Positions 3,145-6,769 of a DNA stretch of 21,407 nucleotides are shown in pieces. The position numbers were made by a program, and so were the translations under genes. This DNA comes from a virus. The notes below the pieces were generated by a model. The model had not been told where the DNA came from. It was given only the letters and a program-made list of their open reading frames with translations, and ran no database searches. The DNA lies in the IMG/VR virus record IMGVR_UViG_3300025630_000071, positions 1 through 21,407 of that record. The stretch is one strand, 5' to 3'. The first letter of the stretch is position 1. Each line of letters starts with the position of its first letter.

Positions 3145-3915
3145 TTATTCTTCATTCTCCGCAATCTGGCACATCAAAGAACATTCGATTGGTTCTGGTT
3201 CCCACGGATATTCATCCTCAGGTAATTCGCGGAGAGATTTACGTTCGCCCTTCACTTTAATCTGCTTTACGCCTAGCCGATCACACAATTCAGCGTAGCG
3301 TTCAAATTCTAAGGGATGGTGCTTCTTAATGCGTTGCCAATAGGCTACCCCCGATGCTTTGCTACAAGGTATGCAGTTAGCATGGTCCATATACTCGTAA
3401 ACCACGGGAAGTTTAATTCCGGCTTTCTCAACCATAGCCAAGCAATCACCCTTGCCTAAACCGTGGCGAATTAGTGGCGTATCAAGCATTACTTCTTGGT
3501 TCTGTTCTCTGAACCGTTCTGCCCGGTGTAATTCCTCCTGGGTGTATCCAAACACTTGAATGTCATCAAATTGCTCAAACCTTTGCCGTACAGACTTCTT
3601 CAACTCAACCGTACAAGGTGCGCCACTTATTCCAGCAACATACTTCCGATCCTCCCAAACTGCCCATGTGTCATCGTATTTATCGTTTTTTAAAATTGTA
3701 ACTGGGTGATCAAACCAATTTTCGCAGTCTTTCAGAAACCGTAAGTTGTCAGGATGCTCGCTGCCTGGATCGGTGTAGCAAATATAAATACGAGAGCGGT
3801 CATATTCACGCAACGCCAGTTTGGTAGCTACCGCTGAAGCAGCGCCGCAAGAGAACCAACAAACAATACGGTTTTTGCCGTTATCTGTTACCTTCCTTTT
3901 AAATTTGTGGTTCAT
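3145..3915 (-). CDS. PP-loop ATPase, phosphoadenosine phosphosulfate (PAPS) reductase-like
   Basis: This 256-residue protein carries a variant PP-loop near the N-terminus (WFSCGAASAVATKLA, residues 20-34), typical of phage PAPS-reductase/ATP-pyrophosphatase family members. YTDPGSEHPDNLRF (47-60) matches the second part of the nucleotide site. Cys101 (APCTVELK), a Cys-x-x-Cys pair at 181/184 (NCIPCS) and C-terminal Cys245/Cys249 could bind an Fe-S cluster or zinc, as in DndC-like and sulfur-transfer members. It is the first gene of the leftward early operon. Phage proteins of this family are often called PAPS reductase but rarely tested. Roles in sulfur assimilation or in sulfur-based modification of DNA or tRNA are both conceivable. 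The lack of the CysH ECGLH tail argues against simple CysH. Confidence 0.75.
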   Translation of the reverse strand: MNHKFKRKVTDNGKNRIVCWFSCGAASAVATKLALREYDRSRIYICYTDPGSEHPDNLRFLKDCENWFDHPVTILKNDKYDDTWAVWEDRKYVAGISGAPCTVELKKSVRQRFEQFDDIQVFGYTQEELHRAERFREQNQEVMLDTPLIRHGLGKGDCLAMVEKAGIKLPVVYEYMDHANCIPCSKASGVAYWQRIKKHHPLEFERYAELCDRLGVKQIKVKGERKSLRELPEDEYPWEPEPIECSLMCQIAENEE

Positions 3916-4061: not shown

Positions 4062-4808
4062 ATGTCTTTCAATTTAAAAAGCATCCAGAAAAATTCATTA
4101 AGCGGCGCACCGAGGGTTATGCTCTACGGTGTGGAGGGGATTGGTAAAACAACCTTTGCCGCTGGCGCGCCAAAGCCTATTTTTATTCCTACTGAGGATG
4201 GGCTAGGCAATCTAAAGGTCGATCACTTTCCATTAGTGGAAAAGTTCTCTGACGTAATGGATGCCGTAGCCAGTCTCTATAAAGAAGATCACAAATACGG
4301 CACCGCTGTTTTAGACAGTTTAGATTGGTGCGAGAACATGATCTGGCGACAAGTCGAGTCTACGCATGACGCTAAAGATTTGGCGTATGGGAAAGGCGCG
4401 GTTATTGCCGCCGAGATGTGGCGTGATTTATTAGGTGGCCTTAACGCTCTGCGTAACGATAAAGGCATGGCTATTATTCTAATCGCGCATACAACGATCA
4501 AACGCTTTGACTCGCCAGAGACAGAGCCGTATGACCGTTACCAGCCGAAACTACAGGAGCGGTCAAATGCTTTGATCCGCGAGTGGTGTGACGCTGTATT
4601 CTTTGCGAACTACAAGACGCTCGTAAAGAAAGACGACATTGGGTTTAACAAGCAGGTTGCCAGAGGTATCAGTACCGGCGAGCGCTTGTTATACACCAGT
4701 GAGCGTCCCGCATACATGGCAAAGAATAGATACAAATTGCCAGACACGATCCCGATGCAGTGGGATGATTTTGAAACTGCAATCACGCAAACAATGGAAG
4801 GTAAATAA
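4062..4808 (+). CDS. Sak4-like RecA-fold ATPase (phage recombination protein)
   Basis: This 248-residue protein is a single RecA-like ATPase domain. The Walker A is GVEGIGKT (23-30), and TAVLDSLDW (81-89) supplies Walker B. IILIAHTTIKRF in the second half fits the core strand after Walker B, and DRYQPKLQERSNALIREWCD is typical of this phage family. Sak4 proteins are RecA-core ATPases that promote annealing of single-stranded DNA together with a phage SSB. The gene directly downstream is a DUF669-type ssDNA-binding protein, which is the usual partner. GGAG lies seven bases before the ATG. An alternative label is generic AAA_24 phage ATPase; the neighbourhood favours recombination. Confidence 0.8.
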   Translation: MSFNLKSIQKNSLSGAPRVMLYGVEGIGKTTFAAGAPKPIFIPTEDGLGNLKVDHFPLVEKFSDVMDAVASLYKEDHKYGTAVLDSLDWCENMIWRQVESTHDAKDLAYGKGAVIAAEMWRDLLGGLNALRNDKGMAIILIAHTTIKRFDSPETEPYDRYQPKLQERSNALIREWCDAVFFANYKTLVKKDDIGFNKQVARGISTGERLLYTSERPAYMAKNRYKLPDTIPMQWDDFETAITQTMEGK

Positions 4809-4809
4809 G

Positions 4810-5286
4810 ATGCCAGAATTTTCCTTTGAACTAGATCAAGACTACGCGCCAGCGCCCGTTAAATCATACGAGCCGCTAGAGCGTGGTGACTATCAGTGCA
4901 TTGTCATTGAAACCAGCATTAAGACAACCAAGGCTGGCACCGGAGAGTACATAGAGGTGGTGCTACAAGTTGTAGACGGTGAGCATAGCGGTCGCCGCCT
5001 GTGGGATAGACTCAATGTTAGCAATCCCAACAAACAGGCAGAAGAAATCGCACGCCGCCAACTTACTGGTTTATGCCAAGCAGTCGGTATGGACATGGGT
5101 AGCAAGCTGGCTGATACAGAGCAGCTACATGACATCCCTATGTCAGTAGCCGTTGACATTGATCGCAAAGACCCAACGCGAAACAGGATTGTTGCGTACA
5201 ACAGCCTGGGCGCGAGTCGCCCTGCTCCTGTTTCTGAACCTGCGGCAGAGGCTCCTTCTTCTAACAAGAAGCCCTGGGAGAAGTAG
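4810..5286 (+). CDS. DUF669 family single-stranded-DNA-binding-like protein
   Basis: This 158-residue protein starts at the ATG one base after the previous stop, with GGAAGG eight bases upstream. Residues about 1-125 carry the DUF669 pattern: YEPLERGDYQCIVIE, TKAGTGEYIEVVLQVVDGEH, GRRLWDRLNVSNPN, then a helical segment and a final beta strand (IPMSVAVDIDRKD). This is the OB-like layout of phage SSBs linked with Sak4 recombinases. The tail (about 130-158) is Pro/Ala/Ser rich and ends NKKPWEK. It therefore lacks the acidic DDIPF tip of bacterial SSB; a tip of that kind is found instead on the next gene's product. It likely coats ssDNA for the upstream ATPase. Confidence 0.75.
   Translation: MPEFSFELDQDYAPAPVKSYEPLERGDYQCIVIETSIKTTKAGTGEYIEVVLQVVDGEHSGRRLWDRLNVSNPNKQAEEIARRQLTGLCQAVGMDMGSKLADTEQLHDIPMSVAVDIDRKDPTRNRIVAYNSLGASRPAPVSEPAAEAPSSNKKPWEK
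5276..5280 (+). promoter_or_regulatory. Ribosome-binding site deciding a TTG start
   Basis: GGGAG lies eight bases before TTG at 5289 but 17 bases before the in-frame ATG at 5298. This favours TTG as the nuclease start. Confidence 0.5.
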
Positions 5287-5288
5287 CC

Positions 5289-6419
5289 TTGCCACAGATG
5301 CCCGATAGCCAGCACTCCACTGCTCAGAAAATATACAATTGGTATCAAGAAAAGAGCAGACCCTACCGACCACATCTCGGAGCGTCGGTTATCGGGCATT
5401 CTTGCGACAGATATTTATGGCTCACGTTTCGATGGGCTAAACAGCAAGACTTTCCTGGCCGCATACTGCGCCTGTTTGAGACAGGTAATTTAGAAGAAAC
5501 TCGAATTGCCAAAGAGCTAAAAGGCATTGGCGTTGTGCTGCATACGCATGACGAGAACGGTAGTCAGATTAGCTGCTTCGATGACTCAGGACATTTTGGT
5601 GGAAGCGTCGATGGCGTAGGCAAGGGATTTCCAGAAGCAGTGAAAACCTGGGCGATCTTAGAAGCTAAGACGCACAATTCTAAGTCGTTTAAACAGCTTG
5701 AAAAAAAGGGCGTTCTTGAGGCAAAGCCAAGGCATTACGCCCAGATGCAGGTTTACATGGGTCTGATGGATTTAACGCGAGCAATGTATTTTGCCGTTAA
5801 TAAAGACACGGACGAGATTTATACTGAGTGGGTTAAGTTTGACCAGACTACGTTTAACAAACTGCGTCAGCGTGCAGAAAAAATAATCTCTGCAACCGAA
5901 CCTCCGCTAAGGGTCAGCGAGCGGGAGGATTGGTGGGAGTGCAAATTCTGTGACTTTAAGACTCTTTGCCACGGCGAGGAAGTTGCTGAACCAAATTGTA
6001 GAACGTGTTGTCATTCTACGCCTGTAGCAAACGGGCAATGGCAGTGCAGTAAATTTAAAACAGATTTAAATGCACCTACGCAGGAAAAGGGTTGCCAGGA
6101 GCACATCTATATTCCTCCACTGATACCCTACGCCGAGCCTGTAGATGCTGGTGACGACTGGGTTGAATACGCCCACAAGAAAACAAAGAAAACTTTTGTG
6201 AACGGCAGCGCTAACTTTAGGTCAGCCGAATTACACAAGATGCCGCCCGAAACAGTTGGCGGCACTGTTAAGAAAATTAAGGAGGCTTTCTTAGGGGCAG
6301 AAGTGACCAAGGTTGTTTCTAAGGCTGGAGGAGATGTTCTAAAGATTAAGCAGCCGCCTAAGAGCAAGAAGAAGGTGGTTTCAGAAGAACCATTTATTGA
6401 CGACGAGATACCTTTCTAA
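5289..6419 (+). CDS. PD-(D/E)XK nuclease, Cas4/RecB-type with predicted Fe-S cluster and SSB-like tail
   Basis: This 376-residue protein (TTG start) shows the nuclease core: FGGSVDG with Asp108, ILEAKT with Glu125 and Lys127, and Gln152...Tyr156 (QMQVY), the QxxxY helix of RecB/Cas4 nucleases. Cys39 (SCDRYLW) with Cys218, Cys221 and Cys227 (CKFCDFKTLC) is the split four-Cys pattern that holds a 4Fe-4S cluster in Cas4/AddB-type enzymes. A second Cys-rich patch at 237-269 (CRTCC, WQCS, GCQEH) may bind zinc. After a Lys-rich linker (357-363) the protein ends in FIDDEIPF, close to the E. coli SSB tip. It likely resects DNA ends to feed the upstream annealing pair. Activity direction is not predictable. 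Confidence 0.8.
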   Translation: MPQMPDSQHSTAQKIYNWYQEKSRPYRPHLGASVIGHSCDRYLWLTFRWAKQQDFPGRILRLFETGNLEETRIAKELKGIGVVLHTHDENGSQISCFDDSGHFGGSVDGVGKGFPEAVKTWAILEAKTHNSKSFKQLEKKGVLEAKPRHYAQMQVYMGLMDLTRAMYFAVNKDTDEIYTEWVKFDQTTFNKLRQRAEKIISATEPPLRVSEREDWWECKFCDFKTLCHGEEVAEPNCRTCCHSTPVANGQWQCSKFKTDLNAPTQEKGCQEHIYIPPLIPYAEPVDAGDDWVEYAHKKTKKTFVNGSANFRSAELHKMPPETVGGTVKKIKEAFLGAEVTKVVSKAGGDVLKIKQPPKSKKKVVSEEPFIDDEIPF

Positions 6420-6769
6420 TGACAGGCAAGATGAGCAGAAACAAAGGCGCACAGGCAGAGAGAGAACTTGCTGCGTACCTGTCTGACGCGCTTGGAATTG
6501 AGATTAAGCGCAAGCTCGATCAGGCGCGTGAGGGTGGCGACGATCTTCAAGTAGGCCGGTTCCGAATTGAGGTAAAGCGTAGGGAAACCTTAGCGATACC
6601 TCAATGGGTTAGGCAGATAGAAGATTGCACTGAAGAAGGCGAAGTGCCGGTAGTAGCTTTTCGCCAAAACAAACAGCCCTGGCGCGTAGTTATACGCCTG
6701 GATGATTACGTCGATTACATGAAGTTTAGCCTAGAGAATAATCCCCAGGACAAGCCCAGCCAAGAATGA
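6419..6769 (+). CDS. Holliday-junction-resolvase-like PD-(D/E)XK endonuclease
   Basis: This 116-residue protein has the compact nuclease signature in its first half: a helix with Glu14 (KGAQAERELAAYL), GGDDLQVG with Asp41/Asp42, and FRIEVKRRE with Glu51-x-Lys53. This order (E, D, ExK) fits small phage resolvase/Hjc-like enzymes that cut branched DNA. It starts one base into the previous stop (TAATG); ATG at 6431 is an alternative. As the last gene of the rightward operon it would resolve branched intermediates made by the recombination proteins. Its 3' end overlaps the opposite-strand membrane protein gene by 39 bases. Substrate is inferred. Confidence 0.7.
   Translation: MTGKMSRNKGAQAERELAAYLSDALGIEIKRKLDQAREGGDDLQVGRFRIEVKRRETLAIPQWVRQIEDCTEEGEVPVVAFRQNKQPWRVVIRLDDYVDYMKFSLENNPQDKPSQE

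Follow-up and report, generated by a model that had tools for sequence, protein, structure and literature searches.

The stretch of viral DNA analyzed here (21,407 nucleotides, hereafter the window) carries a series of adjoining plus-strand genes for a Sak4-like annealase, a DUF669 SSB, a Cas4-type nuclease and a RusA-like resolvase, in which the nuclease ends in a short tip resembling that of bacterial SSBs. The features are:

3145–3915, minus strand: PAPS-reductase-like protein (Pfam similarity weak, under the curated threshold)
4062–4808, plus strand: Sak4-like RecA-core annealase, the proposed receptor of the tip (AAA_24, E 4e-49; phrog_124 Sak4, E 9e-46)
4810–5286, plus strand: DUF669 phage SSB ending in NKKPWEK, tail codons 5263–5283 (PF05037, E 1.5e-18)
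5289–6419, plus strand: Cas4-domain / lambda-exonuclease-like PD-(D/E)XK nuclease, the tip carrier (phrog_1990, PDDEXK_1, fold matches)
6306–6392, plus strand: Lys-rich flexible linker of the nuclease, approximately residues 340–368 (AlphaFold2 pLDDT, near-absent conservation)
6393–6416, plus strand: SSB-like C-terminal tip FIDDEIPF, core DDEIPF at 6399–6416 (translation, conservation, codon analysis)
6419–6769, plus strand: PDDEXK_15 / RusA-like resolvase, the next gene (PF24608, E 7e-11; phrog_244)

Sak4 lies two genes upstream of the nuclease, and the resolvase ATG (6419) overlaps the nuclease stop codon. PAPS-reductase-like genes, such as the one on the minus strand, are often seen in phages.

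The nuclease ORF encodes 376 amino acids, with a TTG start at 5289, an in-frame ATG at 5298 and a TAA stop at 6417–6419. It matches phrog_1990, annotated as 'Cas4-domain exonuclease' (E 5e-105, profile match over residues 8–278), as well as PDDEXK_1 in Pfam (E 4.5e-5). The AlphaFold2 model (mean pLDDT 89) has a predicted fold that matches Cas4 SSO0001, LHK-Exo and lambda Exo, including 6M9K, a structure of lambda Exo with the Redbeta C-terminal domain. Residues E125, K127, C39, C218, C221 and C227 are invariant across 36 relatives, a pattern that points to a PD-(D/E)XK core with Cas4-type cysteines. A CRISPR Cas4 identity is not indicated, as neither cas1 nor cas2 was found among the window genes examined and the neighbors are Sak4, DUF669 and RusA-like genes.

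Translation of 5289–6419 agrees with the first-pass annotation, made from the letters alone, in placing FIDDEIPF (TTT ATT GAC GAC GAG ATA CCT TTC) at the end of the nuclease after a Lys-rich linker (PPKSKKKVVSEEP); the C-terminal end reads ...PPKSKKKVVSEEPFIDDEIPF. Among window ORFs of at least 40 aa, only the nuclease ends in Pro-Phe, Pro-Trp or Pro-Tyr. The resemblance to the bacterial SSB tip that the same annotation had drawn also holds, with an acidic stretch followed by a hydrophobic residue, Pro and Phe at a free C-terminus directly before the stop codon. From residue 350 on, pLDDT falls to ∼46–60, and the last ∼25 residues are predicted to be disordered. The bacterial tail (SSB-Ct, DFDDDIPF) and the nuclease tail thus have in common acidic residues followed by Ile-Pro-Phe at the extreme C-terminus of a disordered linker of low conservation, but the carrier here is an exonuclease rather than an OB-fold SSB, the linker is Lys-rich, acidic residues are fewer and position −4 is more variable (E, P, D, T, A or K).

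We collected nuclease relatives from 80 virus loci. In the clade that contains the window, where conservation of the tip extends down to ∼45–50% identity, F(−1) and P(−2) are present in 16/16 non-redundant Phe-ending representatives and position −3 is I, L or C, whereas pairwise identity at positions −8 to −40 is 5–38%, mostly <20%; this comparison of tip and linker, proposed in the first-pass annotation, therefore comes out in favor of the tip. Variants such as ELNDEIPF, VDDKEIPF, PFDDPIPF, PFNDTIPF, DNDDDIPF and TDDDIPF occur where linkers have diverged too far to be aligned. Two members of the clade depart from the pattern, L017 having lost the tip and L041 carrying one extra Asp after the Phe, by which the usual carboxylate would be hidden.

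The codons of the tip vary synonymously (Pro: CCG 8, CCT 4, CCA 4; Phe: TTC 8, TTT 8; Ile also varies), and TAA, TGA and TAG are all used as stop codons after it. Combined with the invariant Pro-Phe and the diverging linker, this shows that the tip has been kept by selection as a protein motif and is no product of chance, with selection acting on the protein rather than on the DNA or the overlap with the next start. The overlap of the nuclease stop with the next ATG in the window is the one point in favor of a nucleotide-level artefact (next-gene start overlap or a ribosome-binding site) or of coincidence. Set against it are the varying codons, which rule out next-gene overlap as the reason for conservation, the use of three stop codons, retention of the tip with other downstream spacing, and an excess of PF endings among non-redundant nuclease relatives (24/115) over other ORFs of the same loci (21/1400); we regard such an origin as extremely improbable.

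In trees built on the nuclease catalytic region only (48 rows), the tip characterizes two sister-region clades, both with strong support, apart from a few losses. The window clade (17 rows, support 100/98) has 16 tipped members, counting L041 with its extra Asp, and one loss (L017), and the second clade (13 rows, support 99/98) has 8; the state of the tip changes ∼6 times across the tree. The wider nuclease family, including alphaproteobacterial prophages and named phages, is mostly tipless. Compared with phrog_1990 Cas4-domain exonucleases in general, the window nuclease is a full-length family match with conserved catalytic and Cys residues, but its clade adds the linker and tip and has lost an adjoining helicase.

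This helicase, a RadD-like SF2 protein for which E. coli RadD is the best match among solved structures (E 3e-61), adjoins the nuclease nearly always in relatives outside the window clade. It is lost in the window clade and its nearest sister group (21 rows), and ten whole records of that group, several of 33–38 kb, contained neither a RadD-like helicase nor a Helicase_C domain. Helicase loss was considered as a cause of the tip and rejected, as clade B has both tip and helicase and independent pairs are too few for a test; the tip consequently arose before, or independently of, the loss.

Sak4 and DUF669 lie directly upstream of the nuclease in practically all relatives with enough sequence. 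The first-pass annotation had noted that the window SSB ends in NKKPWEK and lacks the acidic tip. This is correct, but the difference is more than an absence: of 114 DUF669 SSB relatives beside Sak4 and a Cas4-type nuclease, 112 end in a conserved basic tail that contains Pro-Trp (or Ala/Val-Trp). Over the last nine residues, DUF669 tails hold 243 K/R vs 27 D/E and PF-tipped nucleases 66 D/E vs 5 K/R, and the basic tail is possibly a charge-reversed counterpart of the SSB tip. We also searched for a bacterial-type SSB elsewhere in these phages and found none in 17 records, namely the window and 16 related records.

Where the nuclease is tipless, an acidic Pro-Phe (or closely similar) end can appear on another protein of the same module. 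Carriers include the RadD-like helicase, with LDDEVPF in Rhizobium phage 16-3, DPDYVPF in Seurat, DDDTIPF in L086, EEEAPF in L113/L136/L137 and DDEIPF in L308, L310 and L358, and the DUF669 SSB (L062, L241, L273 and others). In other Sak4 phages, SSBs adjoining Sak4 end in NDELPF, FDDDVPF, EDEIPF or SEDIPF. An SSB-like protein near Sak4 carries an acidic Pro-Phe end in Bdellovibrio phage phi1422, Klebsiella phage VLCpiS13c, Akkermansia phage Chambord and Proteus phage ZX7, and the annotated exonucleases of phi1422, Chambord and ZX7 have no such tip.

Small proteins serve as carriers as well. A DUF6511 protein, ending mostly in EVPF (e.g. L158:6576–6797, L088 and L128), travels with the Sak4/DUF669/Cas4/RadD-like module; in a separate scan (L369–L448) it ended in PF in 75 of 80 loci, with Sak4 present in most of the long ones and the remainder mostly incomplete. 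A small Cys-rich protein ends in WDEIPF, IEEIPF or ELQIPF, and a similar one in Salmonella phage PA13076 ends in DYDVPF; two such tipped proteins were compared with Pfam and gave no match. Small Cys-rich proteins ending in IPF or VPF were also seen near the module in L066, L068, L229, L232, L235, L237 and L164 (5556–5795).

We counted tips in 95 Sak4 modules with at least 2.5 kb of downstream sequence, under a tip rule set after inspection. Exactly one tipped protein was found in 56 modules and two in none, with no tip detected in the remaining 39, whose carriers may lie outside the stretch covered. When tips were shuffled within each family, 9.8 ± 2.0 double-tip modules were expected. Retaining one module per 65%, 55% or 50% identity cluster, which controls only crudely for relatedness, still gave 0 doubles (P = 0.0004, 0.038 and 0.034, respectively), against 2.0 expected at 50–55% identity (P ∼0.035); the DUF6511 tips included in these counts are weakly acidic.

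A census of DDEIPF followed by a stop codon in viral contigs (L239–L358) ruled out that the tip is confined to Sak4 phages. Canonical SSBs made up 29 of 104 cases, and the other carriers included Enc34-type, T7-type and DUF669 SSBs, RadD-like helicases, AEP-TOTE primases, MoxR/CbbQ-like AAA ATPases and others, some of them in phages or contigs without Sak4 in the stretch covered. The tip is therefore not specific to Sak4.

The closest precedent for a function is phage HK620, in which the DUF669-type SSB ends in NDYPPF; this tip is needed for Sak4 binding to SSB-coated ssDNA, which its removal abolishes, and without it annealing and recombineering lose most of their stimulation (Hutinet et al., PMC5928155). 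The Sak4 and DUF669 SSB of HK620 belong to the same two protein families as those in the window, are likewise adjacent and have a six-residue Pro-Phe tip next to Sak4. HK620 differs in bearing the tip on the SSB, with Abc2 instead of a Cas4-type nuclease alongside (PMC5928155), whereas in the window it is the nuclease that bears the tip, the SSB ending in a basic Pro-Trp tail. Lambda-type annealases, which belong to a different family, recognize host SSB tails (PMC10711431), and the Redbeta C-terminal domain binds lambda Exo (PMC9512822). The lambda Exo/Redbeta complex (6M9K) resembles the window in its PD-(D/E)XK exonuclease fold and in the principle of coupling an exonuclease to its annealase, although lambda Exo is gripped by a folded annealase domain rather than through an SSB-like tip, and the annealase families are unrelated. 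Together with the SSB tips of other Sak4 phages, these cases make Sak4 the best-precedented receptor.

We therefore favor, tentatively and at somewhat less than even likelihood, a functional SSB-Ct-type docking motif on the nuclease that would most likely load Sak4 onto the ssDNA the nuclease makes. The acidic residues, Ile-Pro-Phe and the free C-terminal carboxylate would form the docking motif on a flexible linker; the nuclease would resect DNA ends, exposing single strand, and the tip would recruit the phage's own Sak4 annealase to the freshly exposed strand, taking on, at the end of the nuclease, the role that the DUF669 SSB tip has in HK620. The Pro-Phe tip would be borne by one module component at a time, whether SSB, nuclease, helicase or small adaptor. 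Against Sak4 as receptor stand the 39/95 Sak4 modules without a tip in the sequence covered, the occurrence of DDEIPF in phages without Sak4 in the stretch covered, the extra Asp of L041, and the Pro-Trp tail retained by the SSB, through which it could itself already engage Sak4.

The strong rival to Sak4 loading is a host partner. Here the tip would dock in the SSB-tail pocket of host PriA, RecO, RecQ, RadD, ExoI or chi, either bringing replication restart or unwinding to resected phage DNA or titrating host proteins; with a DUF669 protein that has no acidic tip, the phage would supply one elsewhere. This was also the proposal of the first-pass annotation, and we judge it a real but lesser possibility. 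It draws on the agreement of the tip with the DDDIPF consensus of bacteria and with the rules for its docking (PMC10238739), on the lack of a bacterial-type SSB in the records searched, and on the many unrelated phage proteins that bear DDEIPF (SSBs, helicases, primases and AAA ATPases), a spread that suits a common host receptor. The missing RadD-like helicase, lost from all 21 rows and from every long record that was searched, also fits, since host RadD or RecQ, for example, could stand in for it. Clade B, however, retains the phage helicase alongside the tip, and there are too few independent pairs to test the link. Docking to Sak4 and to a host partner can both be true.

Regulation within the module is improbable in our assessment. 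The acidic tail would bind the basic tail or OB-fold of DUF669, or would autoinhibit the DNA groove of the nuclease as a DNA mimic, and the acidic tails of T7 gp2.5, T4 gp32 and SSB do act in such ways. The opposite charges of the nuclease and DUF669 tails fit this reading; electrostatics, however, would not call for an unvarying Pro-Phe at the C-terminus, small proteins without a nuclease active site also come to carry the tip, and the disordered tail of the AlphaFold2 monomer, which shows no docked intramolecular site, led us to reject intramolecular docking. Even less probable, and in our view very unlikely, is that the tip is read by the neighboring phage RadD-like helicase. The case for it is the match of this helicase to E. 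coli RadD, which binds the SSB tail via Arg21, Arg49 and Arg145 (PMC10238739). Position 145 is basic in 47/48 phage helicases, but Arg21 and Arg49 are not conserved (mostly A/S/G and D/G/N, respectively), the helicase is absent from the window clade, and in several phages it bears the tip itself.

Returning to docking at Sak4 or a host hub, we consider it plausible, again a little short of an even chance, that Sak4/DUF669/Cas4 modules carry a portable SSB-type tip on one protein each, with the carrier shifting and one receptor at phage ssDNA (Sak4 or the host hub) remaining constant. The carrier would shift in evolution between SSB, nuclease, RadD-like helicase, DUF6511 and small Cys-rich proteins because what matters is that the tip be presented to that receptor. 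We read the tip not as a coincidence but as what looks like a portable handle by which phage recombination kits recruit partners.

Both the SSB-type motif and the nuclease are of known kinds. The new part is the tip on a phage exonuclease and its change of carrier: the open-licence literature searched yielded no description of a phage Cas4-type exonuclease with an SSB-like tip, nor of a tip changing carrier within a module. SSB tails are usually treated as a property of SSBs, whereas here the tail has come away from the SSB and sits on a nuclease or, in relatives, on other operon proteins. If the proposed docking is correct, phages wire exonuclease to annealase by a six-residue handle, and DUF6511 and the small Cys-rich proteins gain a first candidate role. 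It would also bear on the host-dependent success of phage recombination kits in recombineering, given that the portability of annealases is already tied to SSB tails (PMC10711431).

Other endings were observed among the nuclease relatives. In L038 and L065, HPDDIP[IV] lies internally and a longer Lys-rich tail runs on after it; this may be a tip that has decayed or been relocated. The tails of L084 and L085 carry the variant KDDIPW, in which Trp replaces the terminal Phe.
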